64,000 bases of DNA from Galbibacter mesophilus (GTDB lineage Bacteria; Bacteroidota; Bacteroidia; Flavobacteriales; Flavobacteriaceae), in contig NZ_JAMQVC010000001.1 of assembly GCF_023721415.1 (NCBI RefSeq), forward strand, positions 62,001-126,000, written 5' to 3'. Shown piece after piece: positions 15,019 to 64,000 of the stretch (position 1 is the stretch's first letter; every line of letters starts with the position of its first letter). The translations under genes and the position numbers were made by a program. The notes under the pieces are model-generated. The model made no database searches. It saw only the letters and a list, made by a program, of their open reading frames with translations, and was not told where the DNA came from.

Positions 15019-15021
15019 AAA

Positions 15022-16382: not shown

Positions 16383-17651
16383 TTATTTTCTAGACGTATC
16401 CCGAGGCTTAATAATCATTCGGAACGATTGGTCTTTACTGAAGTAATATCCTATCCAATCGTAAAGCGCACGAAGTCGGTTTTTGTAATTCACCAAAGAC
16501 ATAATATGAACGAAAATCCAAATAAACCACGCTGGAAATCCTTTTAAAAAGAAGCGCTCATTCGGTCCGTCGGTAACAGCTTTATTCCGCCCGATAATAG
16601 CCATAGAACCTTTATCACTATAATTAAATGGTTGCCATTGACCTTCTTTCTTTTTTAAATTTTCACCAAGATTATCTGCCATTTGAATCGCTACTTGCGC
16701 CACTTGTGGGTGTCCGTCCGGATATTTGGCATCACCTTCTAAAAGGGCTGTATCGCCCACGGCATAAATATTATCATAACCCTTCACCTTATTAAAAGCA
16801 TCCGTTACTAAGCGGCGACCGCGACCGTAATCTTCTTTTTTAAATCCGTCGAAAACTTTAGCGGAAACCCCTGCAGCCCAAATCAAATTTTTAGAAGCGA
16901 TGGTAGTTCCGTCAGACAAGAATACTACCCCGTCTTCAAAATCTTTTACTAACGTATTCAATTTTACTTTTACGCCCAATCCTTCCAATTTTCTTTTGGT
17001 GTATTGTTGCGTTTTTTCCGACATGGATGCCAATACTGCATCCAATCCGTCCAGCAAGTAAATTTCACCTAAATCGTCTTTAATAAGTTCGGGGTAATCC
17101 TTCATTATAATATGCTTGCGCATTTCTGCCAAAATACCAGAAAGCTCCACTCCTGTCGGTCCGGCGCCGGCAATTACAAAAGACAGCAGTTTTTTTCTGT
17201 GCAATGGGTCTTCTACCCGTGTAGCTCTTTCCAAACGGGTAAATACCAAATTTCGTAACGCCAATGCATCACCAATGGTTTTCATGGGCAATGCATCTCT
17301 TTCTATATTTTCGTTTCCAAAGAAATTGGTTTCCGTTCCTGTTGCCATGATTAAAATATCATACTGAACCTCACCATTGCTTAGAATAATTTTATTTTCT
17401 GAAGGAACCACCTTTTGCAGCGCACCTAAACGAAATCTTACATTGTTTTTTCCCCTCAATATTTTTCTAAAAGGATAACTAATAGCGGAAGGTTCCATAA
17501 AACCGGAAGCCACTTGATACAGTAAAGGCGGGAAAAAATTATAATTATTTAAATCTACAAGAACCACATCGTAGGCGCTGGAATCTTTAAGCTGACTTAC
17601 CAATTCGATACCGGCAAAACCACCTCCTACAATCACAATTTTCTTTTTCAT
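16383..17651 (-). CDS. ndh: Type II NADH dehydrogenase / FAD-dependent oxidoreductase
   Basis: This is probably a non-proton-pumping NADH:quinone oxidoreductase. An FAD-binding Rossmann motif GGGFAG lies at residues 8-13 and a second dinucleotide motif GAGPTGVELSG near 165 for NADH. AVGD (in NIYAVGDTALLEG) near 300 contacts FAD. The last 60 residues (KGFPAWFIWIFVHIMSLVNY onward) are an amphipathic, tryptophan-rich membrane anchor typical of bacterial NDH-2. Length is 422 residues. It stands alone, convergent with the PepSY gene. A -7-like element TAACTTTG lies at 17717-17710 on the minus strand. Confidence 0.9.
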   Translation of the reverse strand: MKKKIVIVGGGFAGIELVSQLKDSSAYDVVLVDLNNYNFFPPLLYQVASGFMEPSAISYPFRKILRGKNNVRFRLGALQKVVPSENKIILSNGEVQYDILIMATGTETNFFGNENIERDALPMKTIGDALALRNLVFTRLERATRVEDPLHRKKLLSFVIAGAGPTGVELSGILAEMRKHIIMKDYPELIKDDLGEIYLLDGLDAVLASMSEKTQQYTKRKLEGLGVKVKLNTLVKDFEDGVVFLSDGTTIASKNLIWAAGVSAKVFDGFKKEDYGRGRRLVTDAFNKVKGYDNIYAVGDTALLEGDAKYPDGHPQVAQVAIQMADNLGENLKKKEGQWQPFNYSDKGSMAIIGRNKAVTDGPNERFFLKGFPAWFIWIFVHIMSLVNYKNRLRALYDWIGYYFSKDQSFRMIIKPRDTSRK

Positions 17652-23132: not shown

Positions 23133-25358
<2,226 letters not shown>

Positions 25359-48767: not shown

Positions 48768-50081
48768 TTAAATTGCATTGGCAATGATCTGCTCAAAAAG
48801 CTCTTGTTTTCCACTTAACTGCTTAGGCTCACCGTTAGATTTTCCTATTTCGCTGAGCTGCTCCAGAGTTAACTCTTTGTTCTCAAACTTGGCTCCGTTA
48901 CCACTATCAAAGCTTTCGTATCGTTGCTTTCTAAGCTTTTGGTAGTCGGTGTTTTGTAAAATGTAATCTGCAGCAATAAGTCCGCGCGCGAATGTATCCA
49001 TTCCCGAAATATGAGCGATAAATTTATCCTCCAAATCAGTAGAGTTTCTTCTTACTTTTGCATCAAAATTTATTCCTCCTCCCTGTAAGCCTCCCGCTTG
49101 AAGAATTACCAACATAGCTTCGGTAACCTCTTGAATATTTACTGGAAATTGGTCGGTATCCCAACCATTTTGGTAATCACCTCTGTTCGCATCAATGCTT
49201 CCTAACATACCATTATCCGCGGCTACTTGTAATTCATGTTCAAAAGTATGTCCGGCGAGGGTAGCATGGTTTACTTCAATATTCAGTTTAAAATCATCCT
49301 GCAAACCGTACTTATTTATAAATCCTAAAGAAGTTGCCGCATCAAAATCGTATTGATGCTTTGTAGGTTCCATAGGTTTCGGCTCTATTAAAAAGTTCCC
49401 TTTGAACCCTTGTTTTCTAGCATAATCCCTACAAATGGACAAGAAATTCCCCAAATGATCTAATTCTCTACCCATATCGGTATTTAAAAGGCTCATATAA
49501 CCTTCTCTTCCACCCCAAAAAACGTAATTCTCTCCGCCAAGGGCAATAGTAGCATCAATTGCTATTTTAACTTGAGCACCAGCATGCGCTAAGACATCAA
49601 AATTTGGGTTGGTAGCTGCACCATTCATATAGCGTGGGTTACTGAACAAATTGGAAGTTCCCCACAACAGCTTAATTCCACTTTCTTTTTGTTTCTCCCT
49701 TGCATATGAAACCATTTGCTGGATACGGTCTTCGAACTCGCTTAACGAAGGAGCCTCATCTACCACGTCCACGTCGTGAAAGCAGTAATATGGAGTTCCC
49801 AACTTACTCATAAATTCAAAAGCGGCATCCATTTTATCTTTGGCTCTTTGAACAGGATCATCACTTTTATCCCACTCAAAAGTTTCGGTTGGTGCACCAA
49901 AAGGATCACCTCCTTTGTTGTTGAATGTGTGCCAATATGCAGTTGCAAAACGTAAATGCTCTTTCAAAGTTTTTCCCGCTACTACCTTATTCTCATCATA
50001 CCATTTAAAGGCTAATGGATTATCACTTTCCCTGCCTTCATATTTTATTTTGTCTATATTCTTAAAGTAAGTTGATTTCAT
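48768..50081 (-). CDS. xylA: Xylose isomerase
   Basis: XylA converts D-xylose to D-xylulose. The 437-residue class II enzyme has the catalytic His102 and Asp105 in [17 protein letters not shown] near 190, the [13 protein letters not shown] metal-site block near 240 and [14 protein letters not shown] near 278 with metal-binding residues. [19 protein letters not shown] near 303 completes the site. The gene follows xylB by 42 nt on the same strand, so the two form an operon, facing away from a Nudix-type regulator. Confidence 0.97.
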
Positions 50082-50123
50082 CTCTTCAGTTTTTATTTGT
50101 TTTTAATGTATTATTAAAACGGG

Positions 50124-51608
50124 CTAACTAATGCCGTTTTTCCAAGTTTCATATACTTTTCTGTATTCCTTAACCAAATCTGGGTCTGGTGTTGTACGTT
50201 CTACGCACTCTAATCCGCTAAAAGCGTCTTCTAGGCTGGAGAAGTATCCAAATCCGTAAGCGGCTCCTCTCGCGGCTCCCTCGCTTCCTGAGGTATTATA
50301 CAATTCTAAAATAGTATTGGTGGTATTTACAAATATCTCCCTGAATATCGGGTTTAAAAACAGGTTTGCTTTTCCTGCTCTTACCACTTTTCCTTCTACA
50401 CCAACGTTTCGCATGATTTCAAAACCGTAATTCAATGCAAAAACAATTCCTTCGCAAGCAGCACGCACCAAATCTTCTTTTTGATGAATGTTGAAATTCA
50501 ATCCTTTTAGTCCTGAAAAGGCAGGTTTGTTATTAAAAATCCGTTCCACTCCATTTCCGAAAGGATAAAAAAGCAAGCCTTTCGCTCCTATTTCACTTTC
50601 TGAAGCCAAAGAATTCAGCTTTTCATAATCTATCAATTCTTTTTTGTCTTCGGAAAGGATTTTTCGCAACCATTGATACAAAATCCCCGAACCATTGATG
50701 CATACCATAACTCCATTCCGCTTAAAATTCTCTGCGTTATTTACATGAAGAAAGGTATTGATTCGGTTGTTTACGTCGTAATCATCGGTTTGACTCACTC
50801 CGTAAACCACTGCAGAAGTTCCCGCCGTGGCTGCAATTTCACCTGGATTGAGGGCATTAAGTGATAAAGCATTGTTGGGCTGATCTCCTGCGCGATACGT
50901 AATGTATACATCTTCGCAAAGTCCCAGTTCTTTTGCGACTTCTGGATTAATTTTTGCTTGTTTTCCAAAATTGGGAACGATTTCAGGAATAAGGGAACTT
51001 GGCAAATCCATTGCTTCAAGGACTTCAGTCGCCAAGCGGTTTTCCTTAAAATTCCATAAGGCTCCTTCTGATAATCCAGAAGTACTTATTTGGGCTACCC
51101 CAGACAATTTTGCGGCAATAAAATCACCAGGCAACATCATATATTTAGCTTTCGCCAGAATTTCAGGTTGGTTTTCTTTTACCCATTTTAGTTTGGAGGC
51201 AGTAAAATTTCCCGGACTGCCCAATATTTTTTCCTGACAGTCTTTAGCACCCATTTTTTCATAGGTTTCATCACCAATTTGAGCGGCCCGACTATCACAC
51301 CAAATTATGGAAGAACGCACAGGAGCTAAGTTTTCATCCACCAGCACCAGTCCGTGCATTTGATAGGCAATCCCAACAGCTTGTATCTTTTTTACATCGA
51401 CACCTTCTTCATTTCTTAACTTTACGATTCCATCCTTAACATATTGCCACCACATTTGAGGGTCTTGTTCGGCCCAACCGTCTTGGGGAGCATTTATTTC
51501 CAATTCAAAATCGGGCACGGTTACCGATGCCACAGATTTTCCCGCTTCAGCATCTAAAACCGATAGTTTAATTGATGAACTCCCTAAATCTATTCCTAAA
51601 AAATACAT
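50124..51608 (-). CDS. xylB: Xylulokinase
   Basis: XylB phosphorylates D-xylulose to xylulose-5-phosphate for the pentose phosphate pathway. The 494-residue FGGY-family kinase starts with GIDLGSSSIKLSVLD, has YQMHGLVLVD near 80, an AGDQPNNALSLNAL segment near 240 with the catalytic Asp, and a C-terminal GSEGAARGAAYGFGY ATP-site block. It is the first gene of the xylBA operon. The 184-nt upstream region shared with the divergent regulator carries a palindrome that may be the operator. No xylose transporter gene is present in the window. Confidence 0.95.
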   Translation of the reverse strand: MYFLGIDLGSSSIKLSVLDAEAGKSVASVTVPDFELEINAPQDGWAEQDPQMWWQYVKDGIVKLRNEEGVDVKKIQAVGIAYQMHGLVLVDENLAPVRSSIIWCDSRAAQIGDETYEKMGAKDCQEKILGSPGNFTASKLKWVKENQPEILAKAKYMMLPGDFIAAKLSGVAQISTSGLSEGALWNFKENRLATEVLEAMDLPSSLIPEIVPNFGKQAKINPEVAKELGLCEDVYITYRAGDQPNNALSLNALNPGEIAATAGTSAVVYGVSQTDDYDVNNRINTFLHVNNAENFKRNGVMVCINGSGILYQWLRKILSEDKKELIDYEKLNSLASESEIGAKGLLFYPFGNGVERIFNNKPAFSGLKGLNFNIHQKEDLVRAACEGIVFALNYGFEIMRNVGVEGKVVRAGKANLFLNPIFREIFVNTTNTILELYNTSGSEGAARGAAYGFGYFSSLEDAFSGLECVERTTPDPDLVKEYRKVYETWKNGIS

Positions 51609-51693
51609 AGTTCCGATATAAAAAAAGCTATTCAGAAAACAACTTATGGTAAATATGACTACAATACTAATTAATTATTTTATCTTTATCAAA

Positions 51694-51709
51694 GTTTTAC
51701 GTGTAAAAC
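51694..51709. promoter_or_regulatory. Candidate operator palindrome between xylB and the Nudix regulator
   Basis: GTTTTAC-GT-GTAAAAC is a perfect 7-bp inverted repeat with a 2-nt centre. A second, shorter palindrome ACTAA-GT-TTAGT lies at 51723-51734 with the same GT centre. They sit in the divergent promoter region, the expected place for binding by the adjacent regulator. Confidence 0.5.
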
Positions 51710-51792
51710 CACCAAAAGTTGTACTAAGTTTAGTGAAAACAGCTATATATAAATAATTTCGTATCTATGCATAAATATCACCTACCGTACAA

Positions 51793-52512
51793 ATGATCAA
51801 GAAATTCATCGATAGAGAGTCGGGAAAAATCACCGAACAAAAAGTAATGAATGCCATTACAATTGACTGCGTTATTTTTGGTTTTAACGAAGGTAAATTG
51901 GAAGTCTTATTGGTTGAGCATGCCGAAGGAATAAGCAAAGGACAATGGGGTCTTCCCGGAGGATGGATAAAAGAAGATGAAAGTATCGATGCAGCTGCCA
52001 ATAGATTATTGTTTGAGCTTACAGGTATAGCGGATGTGTATTTGGAGCAACTTAAAGCTTTTGGCGATCCAGAGCGATTCCCTCTCGGCCGGGTAATTAC
52101 CGTTGGTTATTACGCTTTGATAAAAAAAGATGACTACGATGTAAAAGCTGGATTTACTGCTTCCGACGCTAAATGGTACCAACTTGATGAAATCCCCGAA
52201 CTTATTTATGATCACCGGGAAATTCTTGATTACAGCTTGAATCAATTGAAAAACAGAGTGCGACAAGCACCAATCGGTTTCAATTTGCTTCCTGAAAAAT
52301 TTACATTGCTGCAATTGATGCAACTCTATCAGGAAATCTTAAATGTTGAATTGGACAAACCGAACTTCCGAAGAAAAATTTTAAAAATGAAATTGTTGGT
52401 AGATCTAAAGGAAAAACAAAAAGACGTTTCCCATCGAGCTGCCAAACTCTACAAGTTTGATCCCGCCATATATGAAAAGCTTACCCAAAAGGGCTTTAAT
52501 TTTGAGCTATAA
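51793..52512 (+). CDS. Nudix-domain transcriptional regulator (NrtR/AraR type), probable xyl regulator
   Basis: This 239-residue protein combines an N-terminal Nudix fold (about 15-150) with a C-terminal winged helix (about 165-239, KFTLLQLMQLYQEIL then DKPNFRRKILKM). The Nudix box is degenerate: in the region GGWIKEDESIDAAANRLLF the catalytic REuxEE becomes RLLFEL, so two glutamates needed for hydrolysis are gone. This fits a ligand-sensing, non-catalytic domain. Regulators of this build control arabinose or xylose use in Bacteroidetes (AraR of Bacteroides). It is divergent from xylBA with two palindromes between them. Confidence 0.85.
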   Translation: MIKKFIDRESGKITEQKVMNAITIDCVIFGFNEGKLEVLLVEHAEGISKGQWGLPGGWIKEDESIDAAANRLLFELTGIADVYLEQLKAFGDPERFPLGRVITVGYYALIKKDDYDVKAGFTASDAKWYQLDEIPELIYDHREILDYSLNQLKNRVRQAPIGFNLLPEKFTLLQLMQLYQEILNVELDKPNFRRKILKMKLLVDLKEKQKDVSHRAAKLYKFDPAIYEKLTQKGFNFEL

Positions 52513-52533
52513 AATCTAGAGTTACTCAAAAGC

Positions 52534-53604
52534 TTATTCCTTTAACTCACCATTTTCCACATACCAATATTGCCACTCACCACCATTAGCTGTTTTCCAA
52601 TCGTTAAGATTGAAGGTGTGGTTACCGTCATTAGTACCTTTTACAGAATATACTTTTAGTGCTTTGTTATTTTTATTCCATTCCAAAGGTTCCCCATCTT
52701 CACAAACTTCTGGTACATTGTTTTCAATTTCTGGATTTGGTTGAATAAAATACGCGTTATCATCATAATCAGGTGCTCCCCCATAAATGGTAGCCAAACC
52801 CTTTTCATCAATACAAACAGAGGTATATTCATCACAGGCAATTCCTTTTGCCCTAATTCCATAATCCTTAACCATTCGCGCTAAAAATGTCACATGGCGC
52901 CCTTTTCGATCTGGATTATCATAGTGCGTGTCGGTAATAACATCGGTCAAATAATCATTTTGGATGAATGTTGAATTACTTATAGTAACATAATTATCGT
53001 AAGGATTTCTTAGCGCTTCGTTTGAAGTCACAGACCCATTCTGGGCAGTATAATAGAATTTACCCTGGATTGCCATTCCGGCACTTGTACCCCCAATAAC
53101 AATATTGCGATTGTTAATACCATTGTTTATGGCCGTCGCCACCGGTGTATTTCTCCAAAAGGAAATATAATCCCATTGGTCACCACCAGCAAACCAAATG
53201 GCTTCTGCTTTGTTTATTTTATTCAGCACATTTTGGTCTGAACTGGAATTGCCATTATGAAAAACAATGGTTTCCACAGAATTGAGATTTACACCCAAAT
53301 CAGAATAAAAGTAATCATTGTAGCCATCGTCTCCAGAGGTTCTTAAAACCAAAACGTCACCACCTTTTGCGCGGTTTAAGAACCATTTCATGGCATTATC
53401 ATCTTCTGTAGCACCACCCATTAAGCAGACTCCTCCTTGGGGACTTGTAGTCTTATCGTTGGTGCTTCCAACTTTATAGGATGTGTAATTGTTGGAAGTC
53501 GTAGCAAAGGCCGGGTTTAAAGTTGCTTCTTCGGTTTGCTCTTCGGAACAAGAGCAGATTACAATACATAAAAAGGCAAGCGTAACATTTAAGAATGATT
53601 TCAT
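52534..53604 (-). CDS. Cyanophycinase-family lipoprotein (DTHY paralogue 2)
   Basis: This 356-residue protein of the class I glutamine amidotransferase-like, peptidase S51/cyanophycinase family has a lipoprotein signal (lipidated Cys, about residue 19). The nucleophile elbow is GGTSAG with Ser174. GGDQ lies at about 140-143, and the His block is DTHY (His227) instead of DQHF of CphB. The last triad member would be the Glu of ACDE. A C-terminal extension of about 80 residues carries NDGNHTFNLNDW and GGEWQYWYVENGELKE. It is nearly identical in its last 100 residues to the gene upstream (53781-54860). It is the last gene of the putative cyanophycin locus. Confidence 0.82.
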   Translation of the reverse strand: MKSFLNVTLAFLCIVICSCSEEQTEEATLNPAFATTSNNYTSYKVGSTNDKTTSPQGGVCLMGGATEDDNAMKWFLNRAKGGDVLVLRTSGDDGYNDYFYSDLGVNLNSVETIVFHNGNSSSDQNVLNKINKAEAIWFAGGDQWDYISFWRNTPVATAINNGINNRNIVIGGTSAGMAIQGKFYYTAQNGSVTSNEALRNPYDNYVTISNSTFIQNDYLTDVITDTHYDNPDRKGRHVTFLARMVKDYGIRAKGIACDEYTSVCIDEKGLATIYGGAPDYDDNAYFIQPNPEIENNVPEVCEDGEPLEWNKNNKALKVYSVKGTNDGNHTFNLNDWKTANGGEWQYWYVENGELKE

Positions 53605-53780
53605 AATGTAAGATTTAAAAGGTTAATAAAAATGTGTACAGATTTTCTAACAACTCATAAGAGCGTTGGTTAAAATCTGAAACTGAAAAATCCAGTCTTA
53701 TTTGAAAAATTTAGTAGGAATGTTTAGTTCCCATAAAACCTATCTTATTTTATTTATCGCTTACCCGTTCCAAGAGAAGC

Positions 53781-54860
53781 TTATTCCTTTAACTCACCAT
53801 TTTCCACATACCAATATTGCCACTCACCTCCATTAGCTGTTTGCCAATCGTTAAGATTGAAGGTGTGGTTACCGTCATTGGTGCCTTTTACTGCATATAC
53901 TTTTAATGCTTTGCTATTTTTATTCCATTCCAAAGGTTCCCCATCTTCACAAACCTCTGGTGCATTGTTTTCAATTTCTGGATTTGGTTGAATAAAATAA
54001 GCGTTGTCATCATAATCAGGTGCTCCTCCATAGATGGTAGCCAAACCCTTTTCATCAATACATACAGACGTATATTCATCGCATGCGATTCCTTTTCCTG
54101 CAACACCGTTATCTTTACGAATTCTTGCAAGAAAAGCTACGTGACGACCCTTCCGATCAGGATTGTCATAATGGGTATCGGTAATTACTTCAGCAAGAAT
54201 TTTATTATCTATAAATTCTTCGTTTCCAATTGTCATATCCTGATTATAAGGATTCATCAACGCTTCATCTGATTTTACCGACCCTCGTTGTGCCGAATAA
54301 TAAAACCCTCCTTGAATGGCCATTCCGGCGCTGGTACCGCCAATAACTATATTTCTTTCCGTAATGGCTTTATTAATGAGTTCCGCTACTTTTGTGTCTC
54401 TCCAAAACGAAACATAATCCCATTGATCACCGCCTGCAAACCAAATGGCTTCTGCATTGTTAATTTGCGTATGTAGATAATCATCATCGCTAGCTTTTGC
54501 ATTCTTGCAAACAATGGTTTCTACAGAGTTTAGATCGACTCCTAACTCTGAAAACATGTAGTTGTTATAGCCGTCACTTCCAGAAGTACGCAACACCAAA
54601 ACATCACCACCATCGGCACGGTTTAAAAACCATTTCATGGCACGGTCGTTTTCTGTCGCGCCTCCCATTAGGCAAATTCCTCCTTTCGGCGTCGTTTTTT
54701 TATCAGTTTCACTTCCCGTAACATACGACACATAATCTTTTGATGCTACCGGCGGATCCGGTTCTGGAGTCGTTTGTGTTTCGTCTTCTCCTCCTGAAGA
54801 GCAGGAAATAACTAAAATTCCTATCATTAAAAACATCATTCTTAAATAATCCATCTTCAT
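53781..54860 (-). CDS. Cyanophycinase-family lipoprotein (DTHY paralogue 1)
   Basis: This 359-residue lipoprotein (Cys20 after LVIS, then an SSGGEDETQ linker) has the cyanophycinase fold. Visible are GGDQW at 143-147, Ser177 in GGTSAG, His230 in DTHYDNPDRKGRH, and Glu262 in GIACDEYTSVCIDE, a Ser-His-Glu triad as in CphB. CphB has DQHF at the His block; the Gln-to-Thr change could alter substrate contacts. The C-terminal extension is shared with the neighbouring paralogue. The two genes are tandem copies 176 nt apart. Surface exposure and an extracellular role in polymer or beta-aspartyl peptide cleavage are inferred. Confidence 0.83.
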   Translation of the reverse strand: MKMDYLRMMFLMIGILVISCSSGGEDETQTTPEPDPPVASKDYVSYVTGSETDKKTTPKGGICLMGGATENDRAMKWFLNRADGGDVLVLRTSGSDGYNNYMFSELGVDLNSVETIVCKNAKASDDDYLHTQINNAEAIWFAGGDQWDYVSFWRDTKVAELINKAITERNIVIGGTSAGMAIQGGFYYSAQRGSVKSDEALMNPYNQDMTIGNEEFIDNKILAEVITDTHYDNPDRKGRHVAFLARIRKDNGVAGKGIACDEYTSVCIDEKGLATIYGGAPDYDDNAYFIQPNPEIENNAPEVCEDGEPLEWNKNSKALKVYAVKGTNDGNHTFNLNDWQTANGGEWQYWYVENGELKE

Positions 54861-54923
54861 ATTGTTTTAAATTAATTTTTTATTCGAATATCCGTAATCT
54901 GTCTTACTTAATTTACTTTCTCC

Positions 54924-54987
54924 TCGAGCGCAGTCGAGAGGTAATCTAGGCTTCAAGCATGTAAAATGTGGTCTCGACTGCGCTCGA
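54924..54987. repeat. Inverted repeat with 16-bp arms
   Basis: TCGAGCGCAGTCGAGA (54924-54939) and TCTCGACTGCGCTCGA (54972-54987) are perfect complements around a 32-nt loop. They lie in the gap between the transporter gene and the first DTHY cyanophycinase gene. There is no T-run, so it is more a dispersed palindromic repeat than a terminator. It may reduce or stabilise expression of the downstream genes. Confidence 0.7.
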
Positions 54988-55042
54988 CCTGACATTTATA
55001 TTCCTATTTATGAGTCATTAAAGTAGTTCAGTTTTTTAAAAA

Positions 55043-56428
55043 TCACCAACTAAATAATAGTAGCGGTGGCAACATCAACAGCATTGCAACTATAACCAAC
55101 AATATGAAAATTGGTAAAATCCACTGTAACCATTTGTTGTATGGGATTTTTGCAATAGACAAAGCGCCCATGGTAACCCCGCTGGTTGGCACAATTACAT
55201 TTGTTAATCCGTCCCCCATTTGAAAAGCCAGCACAGCTACTTGCCTACTCACACCAATTAAATCGCTTAAAGGAGCAATAATGGGCATTGTTAAAGCTGC
55301 CTGTCCCGAACCAGAAGGAATAAAAAAGTTTAAGCAACATTGAAAAACAAACATCAATTCTGCAGAAACAAATTTGGGCATATTTCCTGCGACCAAAGCG
55401 ACTTCATTTAAAATAGTGTCTATAATCTTTCCATCTTGAGCTATGACCAATAATCCTTTTGCCAAGCCGATGACCAAGGCGGCCGTCATCATTTCTTTGG
55501 CACCATCAATAAAAACGGCAATTGCTTTGTTAATTGGAATTTTAAAAATAAAGGCTGAAACCATTGCAAGTCCAATAAACAAGCCCGCTATTTCATTGAT
55601 ATACCATTCAAAATAAACCACTCCAATGATGAGCAAAACCAACGCAAGAAAAAAAGTAATCAATATCAATTTTCTTGACGAATTCAATTCAGGGAAATCA
55701 GCAGTTTCGTAATTTTCTTCTTCTTGGTTTTCCTGATTTATTAGCAAACTATTCTTCGGATCTTTATCCAACTTAGCAGCATAACGAACAATGGCAATGC
55801 ATGCAATGGAAGTTAAAATAACCCACACTATTAATCGGTATTCAATTCCGCTAAAAATTGCAATTTGAGCTATACTCTGTGCAATACCAATGGTAAACGG
55901 ATTTGTAATTGCGCCCGCAAAACCAACACCCGTTCCCAAAACTGGAATGGCTGTTCCCAATAAAGCATCATAGCCCATCGCTTTTGCTAGAGGAATGGTA
56001 ATTAAAATAAACACCAATACTTCTTCACTCATCCCAAAAGTAGCTCCCGCTAAGGAAAACAATGCGGTAATTCCTGCTAAGATTGCTTTTTTATATTGTG
56101 GATATTTCTTTCCGAAGGTGATTATTCGGTACAAGCCTGCATTTATAGCGCCCGTGTAAGTAATTACTGAAAATGCACCCCCTACCAAGAATACAAATGC
56201 AATTACAAAGGATGCAGCATTAAAACCTTTAATGGGAGCCGTTAAAAAAGCGGCAATTCCCTGCGGTTTAGGGGCAACTTCTTTGTAAGAACCCGCTACA
56301 ATCACTTCTCTTCCATCAACTACAGCCGTATCAAATTCTCCGGCTGGAACAATCCATGTAAGTGCAATAAAAAAAAGACTTATCACAAGAATAATGGTAA
56401 TCGTGTCTGGAAATTTCTTTAGTTGCAT
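55043..56428 (-). CDS. YfcC-family inner-membrane transporter
   Basis: This 461-residue protein has about 11-12 predicted membrane helices (first at about 8-27, ending with ILPIFILLVIVAMLLMLPPLLLF). Motifs typical of the YfcC/ArcD-like (DUF/C4-dicarboxylate carrier) family are GGAFSVITYTGAINAGL near 82, GMSEEVLVFILITIPLAKAMGYD near 132, and FIPSGSGQAALTMPIIAPLSDLIGVSRQ near 365. YfcC proteins are considered transporters of basic amino acids or peptides. Between a cyanophycinase and DTHY paralogues, the likely cargo is beta-Asp-Arg dipeptide, arginine or aspartate. It starts 11 nt after the cyanophycinase gene, so it is in the same operon. Confidence 0.82.
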   Translation of the reverse strand: MQLKKFPDTITIILVISLFFIALTWIVPAGEFDTAVVDGREVIVAGSYKEVAPKPQGIAAFLTAPIKGFNAASFVIAFVFLVGGAFSVITYTGAINAGLYRIITFGKKYPQYKKAILAGITALFSLAGATFGMSEEVLVFILITIPLAKAMGYDALLGTAIPVLGTGVGFAGAITNPFTIGIAQSIAQIAIFSGIEYRLIVWVILTSIACIAIVRYAAKLDKDPKNSLLINQENQEEENYETADFPELNSSRKLILITFFLALVLLIIGVVYFEWYINEIAGLFIGLAMVSAFIFKIPINKAIAVFIDGAKEMMTAALVIGLAKGLLVIAQDGKIIDTILNEVALVAGNMPKFVSAELMFVFQCCLNFFIPSGSGQAALTMPIIAPLSDLIGVSRQVAVLAFQMGDGLTNVIVPTSGVTMGALSIAKIPYNKWLQWILPIFILLVIVAMLLMLPPLLLFSW

Positions 56429-56439
56429 TTGTGCACTAT

Positions 56440-57339
56440 TTAGTGGTTTCTTAAACTGAATTTTTTTCCTGGCAAAACTACTTGGGTTTGAAGGGAATCA
56501 CCACCCAGTAGTCCGTTCTGTTTCTGAATTTTAGTAGCCTTGTTTTTTACTACAATCACTTGGGATTTCCCAGCTACCGTGGCAGAGTCGCCTTCCACAA
56601 TAATTGCGGTAGACTCATCTATCCCTATGGCTGTTTCCCGTGGATGCTCCAACGCTACACTTAGCAAACGGTTCATACGCATACGCTGAATAAAATGCTG
56701 ATCGATAATTGCATTTTCCAAAAGTCCCAATCCTTCTACAATCTCAATATTATCTGCCTCAATGGTTTTGAAGTCACCCGTGTATTCTGGATGTTTAAAC
56801 TCATCTCCAGTAATCATTTTTTTACTCATTACTGCTGCGCCTGCACTCGTTCCTGCAATGATACCCCCTTTCTCATAAGCCGATTTTATTGCTTTTTGAA
56901 TAGGCGTATTTAGTGTCACATCCATAAACTTAGTTTGGTCGCCGCCAGAAATATAAATGAGCTTTGCCTGTTCTAGAGAGTCAATCCAATTTGGATTATT
57001 ATTTTCTTTCTGAAAATTGTATCCCTTTATTTTTTCTTCGGAAATGCCTAACTCTAAAAATTGTTTAGAAGCATAATACACCGCAGAATCCGGTTCGCTG
57101 CTAGACATAGGAAGAATCACCAAATAATCTTCCGAAGTAAAATCACTAACAGTAAGAAGCTTTCGAATCAACTCAGGAGGTCTTTTACCACCACCGATAA
57201 TGAATAGCTTTCCTTTTGCAGTATTTTCAACTTTCAATTTTTCATCAGCTAGCGTTTCATTTAAATCTGCTTTTTTACTTTCACAGCTAAAAAAAACAAA
57301 ACACAATAAAAGTACTCTAAACCATTTTGAGAGTTTCAT
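56440..57339 (-). CDS. cphB: Cyanophycinase (CphB-like lipoprotein)
   Basis: CphB-type enzymes cut cyanophycin (poly-Asp backbone with Arg side chains) into beta-Asp-Arg dipeptides. This 299-residue protein has a lipoprotein signal with Cys19 (CFVFFSC). SGGDQ lies at 131-135, the nucleophile Ser165 in AGTSAGAAVMS (162-172), the canonical DQHF at 213-216 with His215 and the following RMRMNRL basic segment, and Glu242 in GIDES. This is the full Ser-His-Glu set. Unlike cytoplasmic cyanobacterial CphB, it is exported. It lies 17 nt after the isoaspartyl peptidase gene, which performs the next step. Confidence 0.88.
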   Translation of the reverse strand: MKLSKWFRVLLLCFVFFSCESKKADLNETLADEKLKVENTAKGKLFIIGGGKRPPELIRKLLTVSDFTSEDYLVILPMSSSEPDSAVYYASKQFLELGISEEKIKGYNFQKENNNPNWIDSLEQAKLIYISGGDQTKFMDVTLNTPIQKAIKSAYEKGGIIAGTSAGAAVMSKKMITGDEFKHPEYTGDFKTIEADNIEIVEGLGLLENAIIDQHFIQRMRMNRLLSVALEHPRETAIGIDESTAIIVEGDSATVAGKSQVIVVKNKATKIQKQNGLLGGDSLQTQVVLPGKKFSLRNH

Positions 57340-57356
57340 AATTTGCTTTTTAAGTT

Positions 57357-58298
57357 TTATTCTTCATCATCCCAGATGAAAACTTTCTTATCGGAATCTG
57401 TTACAAAACCACGATACATCCCGCCGGAATTGTACGGCATTGTAAAGCCACCATTTTTATCCACGGCTATGAGTCCGCCTTCACCACCCATTTTTCCCTG
57501 GTGTTCATGAATGGCGATTTTAGACGCTTCTTCCAAAGAAAGTTGTCCGTATTCCATTAAGTTGGAAACTGTGGAGGCAACTGTAGCCCGAATAAAAAAC
57601 TCGCCAATTCCCGTACAAGAAACGGCACAAGTTTTATTATTGGCATAAGTACCGCATCCTATAATTGCTGTGTCTCCAACACGTCCATCTAATTTATTGG
57701 TCATTCCTCCCGTAGAAGTTGCCGAGGCTACATTTCCATCAGAATCAATTGCTACTGCACCTACGGTTCCCATTTTTAGGTTTGAATGATCCAGAAAAAT
57801 GGCATCTTCTGATAATTCCTTCGCCTGCTCCCATTGTTTCTTTCTGAAATCGTTGTCAAAATACTGGTTTTCTACCATTTCACAACCTAATTTTTCAGCA
57901 AAAACATCGGCATTTGTTCCAGACATCATAACCACATCTTTATTTTTCAAAAGTTCCTTGGCAAACAACACCGGATTTTTAACCCGTTCGCTATTAGCTA
58001 CCGCACCTGCTTGTAAAGTGGCTCCTTCCATTACGGAAGCTTCCAAGAAATGTTTTCCGCTTCTAGCATATACAGACCCTTTTCCTGCATTAAAATAGGC
58101 GCTGTTTTCCAAAGCCTCAACCGCAGCGCAAACCGCATCTACGGCGCTTCCTCCTTTTTCAAGGATTTTTTCTCCTGCCGTAAGGCTCTTTTTCAGATCT
58201 TTCACGATTGCTTTTTTCTCTTTATCGGAAAGTTCCTCTTTACTTATCACTCCTGCACCACCATGTATGCACAACGAAAATTTTTGCTTTTTACTCAT
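57357..58298 (-). CDS. iaaA: Isoaspartyl peptidase / L-asparaginase (Ntn-hydrolase)
   Basis: This enzyme cleaves beta-aspartyl dipeptides, including beta-Asp-Arg from cyanophycin. It matures by self-cleavage before a Thr nucleophile, here Thr178 in MGTVGAVA. The 313-residue precursor has the HGGAG motif near 12-16, YFNAGKGSVY near 68-77, the substrate-binding NKLDGRVGDT near 201-210 and GCGTYANN near 214. No signal peptide is seen, so it is cytoplasmic. It lies 17 nt upstream of cyanophycinase and downstream of susD, separated from the latter by a hairpin. The order supports complete degradation to Asp and Arg. Confidence 0.9.
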   Translation of the reverse strand: MSKKQKFSLCIHGGAGVISKEELSDKEKKAIVKDLKKSLTAGEKILEKGGSAVDAVCAAVEALENSAYFNAGKGSVYARSGKHFLEASVMEGATLQAGAVANSERVKNPVLFAKELLKNKDVVMMSGTNADVFAEKLGCEMVENQYFDNDFRKKQWEQAKELSEDAIFLDHSNLKMGTVGAVAIDSDGNVASATSTGGMTNKLDGRVGDTAIIGCGTYANNKTCAVSCTGIGEFFIRATVASTVSNLMEYGQLSLEEASKIAIHEHQGKMGGEGGLIAVDKNGGFTMPYNSGGMYRGFVTDSDKKVFIWDDEE

Positions 58299-58444
58299 TC
58301 TAAATATTATAATTCAACTCAATAAGACGTTCAACGTCCACGATCCATCCTACCACTAAACAAGCAACGTAGGCTGTGTCTTTTATGAGGGATTAATAAG
58401 AAAAGAATCAAAAACGAATTTTAATTCTCTAAACGATGTTTTAA

Positions 58445-58490
58445 GTCGGGAAAGCCTTTTACGAAACATGAAACTAAAAGGCTTCCCGAC
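58445..58490 (-). other. Hairpin between susD and iaaA
   Basis: On the minus strand GTCGGGAAGCCTTTTA (58490-58475) pairs with TAAAAGGC-T-TTCCCGAC (58461-58445), a stem of about 16 bp with one bulged base and no T-run. It lies in the 212-nt gap between susD and iaaA. Such hairpins after susCD often protect the upstream mRNA or mark partial termination, giving more SusCD than enzyme. That role is inference. Confidence 0.6.
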
Positions 58491-58510
58491 TATAGGTTTG
58501 GGGTGGGTAT

Positions 58511-59863
58511 CTAGTACCCAGGATTTTGAACAATGACTCCTCCGGAAATAGCAACTTCCGATTGGGGGATTGGATACACCGTTCTAAAAGATTCGATCCC
58601 TAAAATTTCTTCTGCCTTTTCCAAACGCACAACATCAAACCAGCGGTGCCCTTCAAAAGCTAATTCTCTTGCTCTTTCTTCCAAAAGAACATCTACAAAG
58701 GCATCGTAATTTGGTGCATCGGCAGCTGTAATAGGCATGCCTGGCAGCGATCTTGTGCGCACCATGTTTAGGGTTTCGATAGCATCGGTTAAGTTATTGG
58801 GTGTTTGTCTTGCTTGCGCTTCTGCTTTTATTAAATAAATTTCAGATAGTTTTATTAGAATTGCGTTGGCACTTACTTCACCATCATTGGTCCCGTATTT
58901 ATCTACAAAAACTACTCTTCCATCGTCGTAATATTTATCACCCCTCGGATCGTCGTCATCTGCCATATTCACATAGAAATCATCATAGCTAGCAGAAATT
59001 TCTGGTGTTCCAATAGACAAAAATGATGTAAGGCTATTCCCGTCGGTATCTAAAAATTGAAGTTCCAAAATAGCTTCCAAAGAACCTTCAACGTCATAAA
59101 TATCATTGTAATCTCTATTTAAATCATAATCCCCATTACTAATTACCGCATCGGCGTATTGCTCGGCCATGGCATATTCCCCTTGGTATAAATACACTCT
59201 CGCCAATAACGCTTCGGCTGCTGCTTTTGAAGCAAAAAATCTGTTATCGCTATAGTCCAACATATCGATTGCCATCAAAAGGTCTGAAATAATTTGTTGA
59301 TACGCTTCTGATACGGAGGCTCTTGGAATTGTTAAAGCTTCGTCTGCACCAATGTAATTAGTGAAGACAGGTATACCAAATTCAGAATTCATATCCGTAA
59401 ATTGTCCAAATTGACGTAATGCATCAAAAAGACCTAATGCTCTCAAAAAATGACCGGAACCAATAGCATTGGCATCGTCTATTTGTAATTCTTCAGCTTT
59501 ATTTAGAATTAAATTACTAGCATTTACAACCGCATACGCATCAATCCAAGCACTTTCAATGTAAAGGTTTGTAGTAGGAATTTTTGCATTTTCTAATTCG
59601 ATAAAACGCTCGCGAAAACCAGAAGCATCTCCTATACCTCCCGTAACGGCGTGGACCAATGTAAATTCTCCGCCGTAATAGGTTCCGCTCTGTAGAATGT
59701 CATACAATCCTACAACGGCAGAATTCAATGAAATCTGATCTGTTATTGCCTCTTCAGAAGGCACTTCGTCATCTAGATTTACCTCTAAAACCTCACTACA
59801 ACTCTGCAGTGAAACAAAAAGGCATATTGCTGTAGCTAAAAGCCAAATATTTATCTTTTGCAT
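58511..59863 (-). CDS. RagB/SusD-family surface lipoprotein
   Basis: SusD-like lipoproteins sit on the cell surface as a lid over SusC and bind the nutrient. This 450-residue protein has a lipoprotein signal with Cys22 (SLQSC) and the start SEVLEVNLDDEVPSEEAI. Tetratricopeptide-like helices include AAEALLARVYLYQGEYAMAEQYADAVI. The C-terminal SusD signature is ELAFEGHRWFDVVRLEKAEEI, then YPIPQSEV. It lies 21 nt after susC. By context the ligand is a cyanophycin fragment, not a sugar; no carbohydrate enzyme is in the locus. Confidence 0.93.
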   Translation of the reverse strand: MQKINIWLLATAICLFVSLQSCSEVLEVNLDDEVPSEEAITDQISLNSAVVGLYDILQSGTYYGGEFTLVHAVTGGIGDASGFRERFIELENAKIPTTNLYIESAWIDAYAVVNASNLILNKAEELQIDDANAIGSGHFLRALGLFDALRQFGQFTDMNSEFGIPVFTNYIGADEALTIPRASVSEAYQQIISDLLMAIDMLDYSDNRFFASKAAAEALLARVYLYQGEYAMAEQYADAVISNGDYDLNRDYNDIYDVEGSLEAILELQFLDTDGNSLTSFLSIGTPEISASYDDFYVNMADDDDPRGDKYYDDGRVVFVDKYGTNDGEVSANAILIKLSEIYLIKAEAQARQTPNNLTDAIETLNMVRTRSLPGMPITAADAPNYDAFVDVLLEERARELAFEGHRWFDVVRLEKAEEILGIESFRTVYPIPQSEVAISGGVIVQNPGY

Positions 59864-59884
59864 CTTTATAAAATTCAGTAGTTA

Positions 59885-62884
59885 TTAAAATGATGTATTT
59901 AAACCAATGGTAATAGTTCTTGCCTGCCCTAAGGTTCCAAAATCTTCACCTTGTAATACATTCAAATCCCCTTGACTGGCCGTATTGGTAGAAACTTCCG
60001 GATCAAAACCTAAGTAATCGGTAATGGTAAATACATTTTGACCTTGTACATAAAGCAATAAGTTGCTTAAGCCGAGTTTATCTGAAATGTTCTTCGGAAT
60101 GTTATACCCTAAACGTAAGGTCTTTAAGCGGATGTAGTCCCCATCTTCCAAAAACTGCGAACTGAAACGTTGTAATTGTCCAGCTTCCGTTGAAGGTCTA
60201 GGAACATCTGTAATTTGACCTGGCTCTCTCCAGTAATTATTATACACACGCTCGCTTATGTTGGCATAAGGAATACCACTTCTGGTGAAACCAAAGTTGT
60301 CGTAAACGTGTCTACTTTGATTAAATATTTTATTTCCTCCTGAAAACTGAAAGTTAGCAGTTAGGCTAAATCCTTTATAGGAGAAATTGTTTGTCCATCC
60401 ACCAAAATAACTTGGTAGCGCGCTTCCCGCAATTTGTCTGTCGTCAAAATCAATTTCTCCATCACCATTAACATCGGTAAACAAGGCATCCCCTGTTTGA
60501 GGATCAACCCCATTGTATTCTATTAAAAACAAAGTACTTACTGCTTCACCTTCCTTTAAAATATGGTTTCTTCCTATTATTTCACCGTCATTTAACAGGC
60601 TTTTAATCTCATTATCCAAGAACGAAATATTAAACCCTGTATTCCAGTTGAAGCCATCACCCTCAATCACACCTGCATTTACACTGAATTCAAAACCTGT
60701 ATTCTGAATTTCACCAATGTTTTTAAATACGGAACCAAAACCTGTTAACCCAGATACATTAGCACTCAGCAACAAATCTTCTGTTTGCTTATTAAAATAA
60801 TCCGCTGTAAAGCTTACGCGTTGATTGAACATTCCAAAGTCTAAACCAACGTTAAACTGCTTGGTTTGCTCCCACCCTAAATCACTATTTTGTAATCGAT
60901 TTGGCGCGGTACCTGGCGTACCATCGTAGTTTGCGTTTAAGGAGTAAGTTCCTACCCAGTTTGAAGAAATTTCTTGGTTTCCGGTAATACCGTAACTAGC
61001 TCTAAACTTCAAATTTGAAATGCTTTCTACATCAAAAAAGTCTTCTTGATTCAATCGCCAAGCTACAGATCCCGATGGGAAATAACCGTACTGATTGTCT
61101 TCTCCAAAACGGGAAGAACCATCCGCTCTTAATGTAAATGAGAAAATATAACGGTTATCAAACGTGTAATTTGTTCTTCCGAAGAAAGACTGCAATCCGA
61201 ATTGATTTTTCCCCGAGGTACTTGTTAAAATAGTTCCCGCTGCAGAAATACTGGCTGTGTTATTCGTTGCAAAACCAACTCCTGATTGATCTGAAAATTG
61301 TGCTTTTGTTTCTTGCAATGTCCAACCTGCTGTAAGATCAAATGCATGAACACCACCAAATATTTTATTGTAATTCAACGTATTTTCCCACTGCCAAGTA
61401 GTTTCTTCATACGTTGCAAATATAGCCTCTCCATTAGGCGCTTTGTTGGATCCTACCGGCACAAAAGATTCTTCTACAAAATTAGAATACTCCAATGAAA
61501 AAGCGGATCTAAATGTTAAGTCTGGAACCAAATCCCATTCTATAAAATTAGATGACTGTATACGAGTACTTCTAGAAGTATTTACATACTCTTCTGCAAT
61601 GTAAACTGGGTTTTCCAACGGCCACCATGTATTGTAATCAAAAGGATTGGTGTAATTTCCGTCCTCATCAAAAATAGGAGCCGTTGGATCCCACCCTTGA
61701 GCGTTGGTAATCACCCCAAATTCATCATTTTCATTGATTGTTCTTTCATGGTCACCTCTACTGATAAAAGTCGTGGTTCCAACTTTTAAGTTGTCGCTAA
61801 TTTTATGATCAAGATTTATTCTTGAACTCAATCTCTTAAATCCTTGTCCGATTTGAATCCCTTCCTGATCGAAATAGTTTCCACTTAAATAGAATTTTGT
61901 TTTTTCAGAACCTCCACTTACACTTACGTCCAGGTTTTGGGTAATTCCGGTTCTTAAAATTTCATCATAAATATCAGTGTTCACTCCATTTGAAGTATCA
62001 ATCCAATCGAAGTAATCTGGTCCCAAGCCGTCAAATTCCGCAGCTGTATTAAAAAACTCCTTGAACTTAGTACTGTTCACCATTTCTGGAGTATTTGTTA
62101 TTGTTGAGAAACCAGTATAATACCCAACATCTACCGAAGTTTTTCCTTGCGAACCTCTTTTAGTTTTTATCAAAATAACTCCATTCGCTCCTCTAGAACC
62201 ATAAATGGAAGCAGCAGCAGCATCTTTAAGAATGGTTATCGATTCAATATCACTAGGGCTAATATCTGCGATTGGGTTGGCTGGCTGAATATTGCTATTT
62301 AAAGCAGAATTATTTCGGGAAACCAGCGGCACCCCATCTACAATAAATAAAGGCTGACTACTCGCTGAAATAGAGGACACCCCACGGATATTTACATTTA
62401 CGGCAGCACCGGGCGTTGCCGAGGAAGCTGCAATATTAACCCCCGGCGTCTGTCCTTGAATAGTATTTTCAAAACTGGATGTCGGTATTTTAGCAACATC
62501 ATCATTTTTTATAGTTTGAATACTACTACTAACGTCTTTTTCCGATTGGGTACCATACCCAACCACAACAACTTCATCAAGCACTTCTCCCTGACTCAGA
62601 GAAATTTGATATTCATTTTTTTCAGTAAGGGTTACAGTTTTAGATTCATAACCAATATAAGATACCTCCAACGAAGTGGTGGTTTCAGGAACATCGATAG
62701 AAAAATTACCATCGAAATCGGTTACAACACCTTGAGTTGAATTAGGAACTACAACATTGGCTCCCAATAAAGGTTCTTGTGTGTCTTGATCCACAACAGA
62801 GCCCGTAATGACGCGTTGCGAATACGATGCCGTTACTACAAAACACATCAACAAACAAATAATTAAATAATTTGGTAGTTTCAT
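59885..62884 (-). CDS. SusC/RagA-family TonB-linked outer-membrane protein
   Basis: This 999-residue TonB-dependent importer is the partner of the SusD protein. It has a signal peptide (about 1-22, ending TASYS), a carboxypeptidase-regulatory-like domain (about 25-105, GSVVDQDTQEPLLGANVVV), then the SusC-type plug with VVVGYGTQSEKDVSSSI (about 106-122), RGVSSISASSQPLFIVDGVPL and SIYGSRGANGVILIKTK (about 226-242). The barrel has the final GLNTSF. No anti-sigma or hybrid two-component gene is adjacent. The first gene of the locus by transcription order; inferred to import Asp-Arg peptides. Confidence 0.94.
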   Translation of the reverse strand: MKLPNYLIICLLMCFVVTASYSQRVITGSVVDQDTQEPLLGANVVVPNSTQGVVTDFDGNFSIDVPETTTSLEVSYIGYESKTVTLTEKNEYQISLSQGEVLDEVVVVGYGTQSEKDVSSSIQTIKNDDVAKIPTSSFENTIQGQTPGVNIAASSATPGAAVNVNIRGVSSISASSQPLFIVDGVPLVSRNNSALNSNIQPANPIADISPSDIESITILKDAAAASIYGSRGANGVILIKTKRGSQGKTSVDVGYYTGFSTITNTPEMVNSTKFKEFFNTAAEFDGLGPDYFDWIDTSNGVNTDIYDEILRTGITQNLDVSVSGGSEKTKFYLSGNYFDQEGIQIGQGFKRLSSRINLDHKISDNLKVGTTTFISRGDHERTINENDEFGVITNAQGWDPTAPIFDEDGNYTNPFDYNTWWPLENPVYIAEEYVNTSRSTRIQSSNFIEWDLVPDLTFRSAFSLEYSNFVEESFVPVGSNKAPNGEAIFATYEETTWQWENTLNYNKIFGGVHAFDLTAGWTLQETKAQFSDQSGVGFATNNTASISAAGTILTSTSGKNQFGLQSFFGRTNYTFDNRYIFSFTLRADGSSRFGEDNQYGYFPSGSVAWRLNQEDFFDVESISNLKFRASYGITGNQEISSNWVGTYSLNANYDGTPGTAPNRLQNSDLGWEQTKQFNVGLDFGMFNQRVSFTADYFNKQTEDLLLSANVSGLTGFGSVFKNIGEIQNTGFEFSVNAGVIEGDGFNWNTGFNISFLDNEIKSLLNDGEIIGRNHILKEGEAVSTLFLIEYNGVDPQTGDALFTDVNGDGEIDFDDRQIAGSALPSYFGGWTNNFSYKGFSLTANFQFSGGNKIFNQSRHVYDNFGFTRSGIPYANISERVYNNYWREPGQITDVPRPSTEAGQLQRFSSQFLEDGDYIRLKTLRLGYNIPKNISDKLGLSNLLLYVQGQNVFTITDYLGFDPEVSTNTASQGDLNVLQGEDFGTLGQARTITIGLNTSF

Positions 62885-63628
62885 TTTAAGATAGTTTGAT
62901 TAAAATTTAGATATAATACTAGAACATGCGTCGTTCAGAATAGAACATGCATATAGAACAATAAGTCGATTGGCGCTTTTGTAAAAAAGCACTTTACGAG
63001 ACTTAAGAAAGAATGTTTTTAACAGTCAAAAATTGGCTGAAGACCTTTTAATGTAAGCGACTTACATAAAAGGTTTGGTGTGGTTGCGTAATTTAAATTG
63101 GTGCGATACATATAAAAATGGTATTACAACAAAGAGTGAATTTAAGTTAAGGGAAAACGCCGAACTAAAACAATCGGCAAAATTTGCTAGGGGTAAAAGA
63201 AAATCCCTAACAATCAAAAATAGGCTGCAACCCCTGAAGAGAAAGTGGCTTGCAATGCGTAACAGTATGTACTAGACCTATTTCCAAAATCTTTTAGATG
63301 TTAAAATTTTTACTAAAAATAGGCAAAATTTATTAAATCACAACAAAAATTTAACTTTTCAACTCGTTTTTATTAATATTTAATTAACGGACCGCTTAAT
63401 TTGTACACTTCGGAATTATAGCTTTTTAATTTGATAAGTTGATAATTTGGTTATTTGATTGCTTACTGAAAACGAGCGTTCTAGCAGTTATAAATACATG
63501 ACACCTCTTAAGCTTCGATTTATAAGTTTCAAAGCACAACTTTTAGAACGCTTAAACTTCCACTTATTAAACCGTTCAAACTTGACATATTCTTAAAAAA
63601 CAATTATGCAAACCAACCAAAAATACAG
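62885..63628. other. Gene-free region between the SusC gene and thrS
   Basis: About 740 nt without a believable gene. A hairpin (ACCTTTTAATGTAAG with CTTACATAAAAGGT, one bulge) lies at 63043-63074. Two degenerate direct repeats begin at 63021 (AACAGTCAAAAATTGGCTG) and 63210 (ACAATCAAAAATAGGCTG). A 66-residue plus-strand frame at 63075-63275 is not protein-like. The SusC promoter should be here, but I find no pair of boxes in a good spacing. Positions 63290-63600 are AT-rich, with nothing recognised. Confidence 0.45.
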
Positions 63629-63659
63629 TTGTACGCGTAAAGACTTCGACTTATCTTTG
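63629..63659 (+). promoter_or_regulatory. Promoter of thrS
   Basis: TTG at 63629-63631 and a perfect TATCTTTG at 63652-63659 are 20 nt apart. The leader would be only about 17 nt, so a T-box style leader is excluded. Confidence 0.6.
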
Positions 63660-63682
63660 CAGACTGAAAAACAACGTATATA

Positions 63683-64000
63683 ATGATTAAGATTACTTTA
63701 CCCGACGGATCGGTTAAGGAGTTTGAAAAAAATGCAACTCCAATGGATGTGGCAAAAAGCATTAGCGAAGGTTTAGCCCGCAATGTAATTTCTGCAAACT
63801 TTAATGGCACCAAAGTAGAAACGGTAACCCCATTAACCACCGACGGAAGTCTTACGCTTTATACGTGGAACGATGACGAAGGGAAACAGGCCTTTTGGCA
63901 CTCTACTTCCCACATTATGGCACAAGCCCTTGAGGAATTGTACCCTGGAGTAAAACTTACTATTGGACCGTCTATTGACAATGGTTTTTATTATGATGTA
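63683..64000 (+). CDS. thrS: Threonine--tRNA ligase, N-terminal part (runs off the window)
   Basis: ThrS charges tRNA-Thr. Only the first 106 codons are in the window. They show the N-terminal TGS domain ([27 protein letters not shown], the first about 62 residues, given here in part) and the start of the editing domain with [35 protein letters not shown], including the HSTSH motif. The start at ATG 63683 fits the promoter at 63629-63659. Gene is truncated by the window end, not broken. Confidence 0.95.

Follow-up and report, generated by a model that had tools for sequence, protein, structure and literature searches.

What does a SusC/SusD transporter take up when its neighbors encode cyanophycinase-family proteins? 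This question is raised by a locus of Galbibacter mesophilus (assembly GCF_023721415.1, contig NZ_JAMQVC010000001.1) at positions 52534 to 62884 of the 64,000-nucleotide stretch analyzed here, referred to as the window. In polysaccharide utilization loci of Bacteroidota, a SusC-SusD pair is joined by hydrolases that are lipoproteins, by a carrier in the inner membrane, and by a hydrolase that completes degradation inside the cell. The locus follows the same plan with a presumed polypeptide as the substrate, and it is not itself a polysaccharide utilization locus, as none of its seven genes encodes a carbohydrate-active enzyme. With a probability of about 85%, it scavenges cyanophycin (multi-L-arginyl-poly-aspartate) released by other organisms, on the basis of a SusCD transporter. 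A sequence-only reading had proposed cyanophycin uptake and degradation, and this proposal is supported by a conserved neighborhood, intact cyanophycinase residues, and the lack of a synthetase above the cut-off. The seven genes are given below in the order of transcription, from 62884 to 52534.

59885..62884, minus strand: SusC-type TonB-linked outer-membrane transporter, 999 amino acids, first of the run (TIGR04056, 898.7 bits; SusC/RagA signature TIGR04057)
58511..59863, minus strand: SusD-type lipoprotein, 450 amino acids, transporter lid (PF07980 and PF14322 above cut-off; acidic tail after the lipobox Cys)
57357..58298, minus strand: IaaA-type isoaspartyl aminopeptidase/asparaginase, 313 amino acids, nucleophile Thr178 (PF01112, 332.1 bits)
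56440..57339, minus strand: CphB cyanophycinase, 299 amino acids, lipoprotein (TIGR02069, 155.8 bits, cut-off 126.6; PDB cyanophycinases 7uqv, 3en0, and 7uqw)
55043..56428, minus strand: DcuC/YfcC-type inner-membrane carrier, 461 amino acids, proposed beta-Asp-Arg importer (PF03606 DcuC, 350.8 bits)
53781..54860, minus strand: Cph2, S51-family lipoprotein, 359 amino acids, proposed surface cyanophycinase (PF03575 above cut-off; acidic lipoprotein tail)
52534..53604, minus strand: Cph3, paralogue of Cph2, 356 amino acids, S51-family lipoprotein (PF03575 above cut-off; acidic lipoprotein tail)

All seven open reading frames (ORFs) have the coordinates, order, and single strand first described for them, and 52534-62884 contains no other ORF of at least 100 amino acids. 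Family scans of the seven proteins yield no glycosidase, lyase, or sulfatase, as had been claimed. The genes are separated, in transcription order, by 21, 212, 17, 11, 182, and 176 base pairs (bp). The wider gaps, 212 bp ahead of IaaA and 182 and 176 bp ahead of Cph2 and Cph3, would allow several transcripts. The adjacent SusC (TIGR04056) and SusD (PF07980) genes make up a SusCD importer. SusC shows 92.6%, 73%, and 70% identity with the proteins at the same place in the genomes G604, G448, and G017. An AlphaFold model of SusD (predicted local distance difference test score [pLDDT] of 78.2) has generic SusD-like proteins, mostly without a stated ligand, as its top PDB matches, with a laminarin binder at rank 4. 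The combination of a cyanophycinase, an isoaspartyl dipeptidase, and a transporter without a synthetase above the cut-off characterizes the gene set as a cyanophycin utilization locus.

CphB clears the NCBI equivalog cut-off for cyanophycinase. Its catalytic residues Ser165, His215, and Glu242, as well as Thr178 of the isoaspartyl peptidase, had been named correctly. CphB retains all eight positions of the Synechocystis enzyme (3en0 and 7uqw), i.e., these three residues and Gln135, Gln214, Arg219, Arg221, and Arg224. None of the eight varies among the 82 aligned sequences, comprising the window, five fetched relatives, and the scan loci described below; 4 of 86 loci lack a usable CphB. The Gln and Arg residues are reported in the structure papers to bind the polymer. 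Twenty contrast cyanophycinases of the same order deviate among the eight positions at Gln214 only, which is replaced by Thr in 19 and by Ser in 1. The IaaA protein belongs to the Asparaginase_2 family with an N-terminal nucleophile Thr and is nearer to IaaA than to glycosylasparaginase: its closest solved chain, 2zak, the Escherichia coli isoaspartyl peptidase, scores 261.8 bits, compared to 99.8 bits for the best glycosylasparaginase. Beta-subunit chains align from residue 178, and no signal peptide is visible by eye. The protein is classed as IaaA-type, with 305.2 bits against the 567 bits of the NCBIfam equivalog NF007589.

The genome (3.77 Mb, 99.99% complete) contains no cyanophycin synthetase above the TIGR02068 cut-off, the best of 11 weak matches reaching 125 compared to 850 bits. 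The claim that a synthetase gene is missing, made from the window, therefore holds for the whole-genome search. Three of the four S51 matches of the genome lie in the locus. A second IaaA paralogue and an arginase-family protein (209.6 bits) are present elsewhere; IadA above the cut-off was not found in the genome.

The expected conservation of the SusCD-IaaA-CphB-YfcC neighborhood was found, with the core order present in 14 distinct genomes. Compared with 397 genomes of the family, the window SusD has four matches with at least 60% identity, itself included, all four in this locus; the next best shows 39%. A scan with CphB, limited to one genome per species, covered the best 80 of 276 relatives. 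SusC or SusD lies within 7 kb of CphB in 56/80 loci and in 42 of the 54 loci with full flanks. The contrast set consists of 20 of the 152 genomes (of 393 in the order) with a cyanophycinase above the cut-off, 19 of the 20 stemming from the 30 best-scoring ones, which favors CphA-linked enzymes. SusC, SusD, and YfcC occur near 0/20 of these enzymes in the fetched 18 to 20 kb (∼5 kb on one side for one and ∼8 kb on one side for another). The difference in linkage, 42/54 versus 0/20, gives a Fisher p of 4e-10 with kinship ignored, and with 26 SusD-domain matches in 3.77 Mb, about 1 random gene in 10 would lie that near to SusD by chance. Conversely, CphA lies near 18/20 contrast genes compared to 0/80 scan loci, confirmed at 1240 to 1271 bits for three of the 18 and for genome G130.

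The loci fall into four layouts, whose domains were checked on single representatives. Layout A, the window type, occurs in 14 distinct Flavobacteriaceae genomes, including Flavobacterium, Christiangramia, Salinimicrobium, Aquimarina, and Tamlana, and shows SusC, SusD, IaaA, CphB, and YfcC followed by zero to two Cph2-like genes; Robertkochia has the same layout without SusCD. Layout B, from other Flavobacteriaceae, comprises an extracytoplasmic function (ECF) sigma factor, FecR, SusC, SusD, two PKD proteins, CphB, and an M20 peptidase, followed in 10/12 by an S51 protein of ∼430 amino acids. The sigma factor and FecR were named by eye, and "PKD" denotes a loose cluster. Layout C, from Bacteroidales and others, contains SusC, SusD, a PKD protein, CphB, mostly YfcC, and IadA in some cases, and layout D, from Cytophagales, contains mostly a long S51 protein, SusC, SusD, two PKD proteins, and CphB. 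S51 proteins of the loci L083, L096, L106, and L100 carry a type IX secretion system (T9SS) tail. IadA of L100 scores 488.9 bits with TIGR01975 (cut-off 331), the M20 domain is confirmed in L083, and SusC of L097 is split over two ORFs. Judged by names alone, relatives with the layout come from sea and lake alike; the marine setting put forward in the sequence-only reading is a supposition. In the Flavobacterium locus L077, Cph2 is directly followed, at 15477-17447, by an arginine-deiminase-like protein (47.8 bits, under the cut-off) and the citrulline hydrolase CtlX (447.1 bits, above the cut-off); this pair may be an extension toward arginine use or a chance neighbor. SusD and CphB of contig L158, labeled Halorubrum, are identical to those of the Bacteroidales contig L160, probably through a binning error.

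Phylogenetic analyses indicate that these loci do not share one transporter history. The first SusD tree comprised 59 linked and 51 other SusDs, with one short row and four duplicates excluded; linked SusDs below 350 amino acids (5/64) were dropped, and "linked" denotes the same fetched locus with no set distance. Layout A forms a pure clade of 15 rows (support of 100) representing 14 genomes, since L105 and G017 (L077) are one contig. Layouts B, C, and D together form a second pure clade of 40 rows (support of 96), and four linked rows (L131, L155 twice, and L167) scatter among other SusDs. Purity of the second clade as an artefact of undersampling was rejected: both clades remain pure after the addition of the 16 SusDs nearest to one layout-B SusD from 395 genomes of the phylum, in an enlarged tree sampled around this one protein and omitting 12 long-branch background rows. 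These 16 matches stem from 15 genomes, and 15/16 have no S51 gene in ∼19.5 kb. A single origin of the two clades is rejected by the approximately unbiased (AU) test (p 0.0074) on 44 selected rows, chosen after the tree was seen. The CphB tree places all 82 sequences in one clade against the contrast enzymes, with layout A grouping with IadA-bearing loci in a supported clade of 41 rows. The two SusD clades and the single CphB clade indicate at least two separate recruitments of SusCD to cyanophycinase, the enzyme lineage being kept and the transporter differing. For the remaining one of the 16 matches, in G956 (locus L240), the gene directly after SusC-SusD encodes an S51 protein with just 30% identity to the CphB set; this is perhaps a further independent pairing.

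We infer the substrate, the compartments, the membrane crossed by each fragment, the direction of the YfcC-type carrier, and the activity of Cph2 and Cph3. At the cell surface, Cph2 and Cph3 would cut the polymer down, and the fragments would be captured by SusD and imported by the TonB-driven SusC. CphB, facing the periplasm, would finish them to beta-Asp-Arg dipeptides, which the YfcC-type carrier would move across the inner membrane for cleavage to Asp and Arg by the cytoplasmic IaaA. The lipoprotein signals described for all three S51 proteins are borne out by a lipobox-like cysteine, recognized by a simple rule. Among proteins of layout A and Robertkochia, the mean numbers of acidic and basic residues in the seven positions after this cysteine are 2.9 and 0.4 in SusD (n = 14), 2.4 and 0.25 in Cph2/Cph3 (n = 12), and 1.1 and 1.3 in CphB (n = 15). 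A negative overall charge after the cysteine is needed for the surface export of Bacteroidetes lipoproteins, according to PMC5080379. Taken together, this requirement and the tail charges suggest Cph2 and Cph3 at the cell surface and CphB facing the periplasm.

The sequence-only reading had counted three cyanophycinases, which stands for CphB and needs qualifying for Cph2 and Cph3, members of a distant S51 branch with 73% identity to each other. Both retain Ser, His, Glu, Gln135, Arg221, and Arg224, with Thr in place of Gln214, and belong to a tabulated set of accessory S51 proteins (28 short, 14 long). An AlphaFold model of Cph2 (pLDDT of 88.7, 21 sequences) has cyanophycinase chains at Foldseek ranks 1 to 9, three of them of "pseudo-CphB," with PepE dipeptidases behind. 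Identity with the cyanophycinase entries is 17 to 20% and the template modeling score (TM-score) by target 0.76 to 0.81. Cph2 has a cyanophycinase-like fold and active site with the changes to Thr and, as mentioned below, Pro; that Cph2 and Cph3 act on cyanophycin is no more than a good guess.

Several observations weigh against cyanophycin scavenging by this locus. Cph2 and Cph3 reach 55.6 and 61.2 of the required 126.6 bits with TIGR02069 and are classed as S51 relatives, and Pro replaces the ligand Arg219 in both. The carrier, at 377.8 versus 500 bits, is under the NCBIfam YfcC cut-off and is classed as DcuC family only. IaaA lies near 20/20 contrast cyanophycinases and hence is not special to scavenging, and IaaA of cyanophycin clusters is promiscuous according to PMC10206079. 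The scan query consisted of six CphB rows, all SusCD linked and two found via SusD, with a possible tilt to such loci. SusCD is absent within 7 kb in 12/54 full-flank loci, among which L100, L117, and L103 carry SusC or SusD slightly farther out, and IaaA, IadA, and M20 are all not found within 7 kb in 36/80 loci (20/54 with full flanks). G414, from the same genus, shares the neighboring regulator and sugar genes and has neither a CphB above the cut-off nor such a locus beside them. The window contains 0 matches to a promoter pattern of the Bacteroidetes type, compared to ∼5 expected by chance, and no Rfam element reaches the gathering score in 52000-64000.

The type of dipeptidase is linked to the presence of the carrier. 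Of the 80 loci, those with IaaA within 7 kb also contain YfcC in 13/14 cases, those with IadA in 11/18, and those with M20 in 0/12. The contrast of 24/32 for IaaA or IadA with 0/12 gives a Fisher value of 6e-6 with kinship ignored; most M20 loci fall in one clade, so that few independent events are involved. M20 stands beside CphB in place of an isoaspartyl dipeptidase, with the YfcC-type carrier missing, in L081, L083, L118, L125, L135, and L137 and in further loci of layout B (L140, L153, L162, L164, L166, and L168); in L127 and L165, it lies nearby on the opposite strand. Judged by eye, 14 M20 N termini show a signal-like hydrophobic stretch, and the shown N termini of 14 of 19 IaaA and 14 of 19 IadA proteins do not, although several starts are doubtful. 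Among solved chains, M20 comes closest to carboxypeptidase G2 (91.2 bits); weak matches include a poly(aspartic acid) hydrolase (28.4 bits). The signal-bearing M20 peptidase is a candidate periplasmic beta-Asp-Arg dipeptidase, a proposal drawn mostly from one clade. The M20-bearing genome G130 has a separate CphA-CphB-IaaA storage locus (L227) besides its SusCD scavenging locus (L083), and its one IaaA adjoins CphA, so M20 is not the sole candidate dipeptidase there. Somewhat short of even odds is the wider picture in which SusCD cyanophycin scavenging is widespread in Bacteroidota as a modular trait, assembled two or more times around SusCD pairs unrelated to each other. Its last step would have moved between compartments, from cytoplasmic IaaA or IadA, usually with a dedicated DcuC/YfcC dipeptide carrier, to a signal-bearing M20 finishing in the periplasm with the carrier lost.

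The same counts bear on a variant of the scavenging pathway in which YfcC exports or exchanges arginine or ornithine, the supposed role of its annotated relatives, and a general carrier takes the dipeptides into the cytoplasm. The nearest NCBIfam model is named as a putative basic amino acid antiporter, and YfcC occurs in 17/36 loci without a recognized dipeptidase within 7 kb, some of these loci being incomplete. The absence of the carrier from all M20 loci and its frequency beside IaaA and IadA are, however, as expected of a dipeptide carrier, and the variant is held to be less likely than not. Clearly less probable is a general import of isoaspartyl-rich peptides, from aged proteins or other beta-aspartyl polymers, with cyanophycin as one substrate or none. 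It fits the promiscuity of IaaA mentioned above and the range of the S51 family, which also holds enzymes for other aspartyl and isoaspartyl substrates, such as PepE and MccG (PMC9239234). Against it, CphB is above the cyanophycinase cut-off, keeps three Arg and two Gln residues, and scores 36.6 bits with the PepE model (cut-off of 156), and the locus contains no further peptidases.

Mobilization of the cell's own cyanophycin would agree with the frequency of cyanophycinases in the order (152/393 genomes) and with CphA beside 18/20 of those examined; it is rejected as next to impossible here, given no synthetase above the cut-off in the genome, S51 lipoproteins joined to an outer-membrane importer, and the separate storage locus that G130 has besides its scavenging locus. 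That the neighboring genes are functionally unrelated has an equally negligible chance and is rejected, common as SusCD pairs are (26 SusD-domain matches in the genome), by the linkage of 42/54 versus 0/20 and a gene order kept in 14 distinct genomes.

The concept of cyanophycin scavenging is already in print, and the kind of system is known. The abstract of Ben Hania et al. from 2017 reportedly likens a cyanophycin transport complex to polysaccharide utilization loci. That locus, from strain L21-Spi-D4 (Salinivirga cyanobacteriivorans), contains IadA, in contrast to IaaA in the window, and the window has in addition two lipoprotein S51 paralogues; the window SusD lineage also differs from that of the Salinivirgaceae contig L101. 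RagAB is comparable as a SusCD-type peptide importer, with RagB matching the window SusD weakly (26.8 bits; fold rank 39 and lower). A further comparison concerns Citromicrobium sp. JLT1363, which we take not to belong to the Bacteroidota. A TonB receptor lies beside its cyanophycinase, and cyanophycin was proposed in 2012 as a TonB-dependent substrate, according to PMC3400609; SusD has 0 occurrences in the main text. Other papers mention the Bacteroidetes "cyanophycin utilization locus" (Ben Hania 2017, cited by a 2023 paper) and two cyanophycinases of S. cyanobacteriivorans, one with a Por secretion domain (PMC6243061). Sharon et al. (2023; PMC10206079) found cyanophycinase and iaaA clustered in 30/32 genomes having both and no cphA1. 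They regard such clusters, which often include amino acid transporters, as probably serving cyanophycin scavenging; the word TonB occurs 0 times in their main text.

In the partial texts of the literature searched, cyanophycin, cyanophycinase, and SusD occur together in one Dyadobacter paper, which does not link the terms there. This partial material did not show a layout combining IaaA and SusCD, a double recruitment, or a swap of the last enzyme, nor, among the matches listed, an M20-type cyanophycin dipeptidase. What is added to the known kind is the present form of the gene set and the breadth of its distribution, with repeated reassembly. Cyanophycin is a nitrogen-rich store of cyanobacteria, and which organisms recover it from lysed cells matters for how nitrogen is recycled in blooms and mats. 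If the assignment is true, genomes and metagenomes could be searched for cyanophycin consumers with the two SusD clades and the CphB clade as sequence markers, and a well-defined polypeptide would join the substrates of the SusCD machinery. The M20 peptidase offers a concrete candidate for one more cyanophycin dipeptidase. According to the 2023 survey, the isoaspartyl dipeptidases of Firmicutes and Bacteroidota are still to be discovered (PMC10206079); the remark there concerns CphA1-bearing genomes, whereas M20 sits in scavenging loci.

Other genes of the window lie apart from this system. At 48768-52512, two genes resembling xylose isomerase and xylulokinase (by eye) stand beside a NUDIX/winged-helix regulator bearing AraR_C and NrtR domains, and the regulator and the kinase-like gene are common to G604 and G414. 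A TonB receptor with a PepSY_TM protein after it occupies 12595-16305, and another PepSY_TM protein is encoded at 37661-39235. The region 23133-25358 encodes a monomeric isocitrate dehydrogenase (PF03971, 1317 bits).

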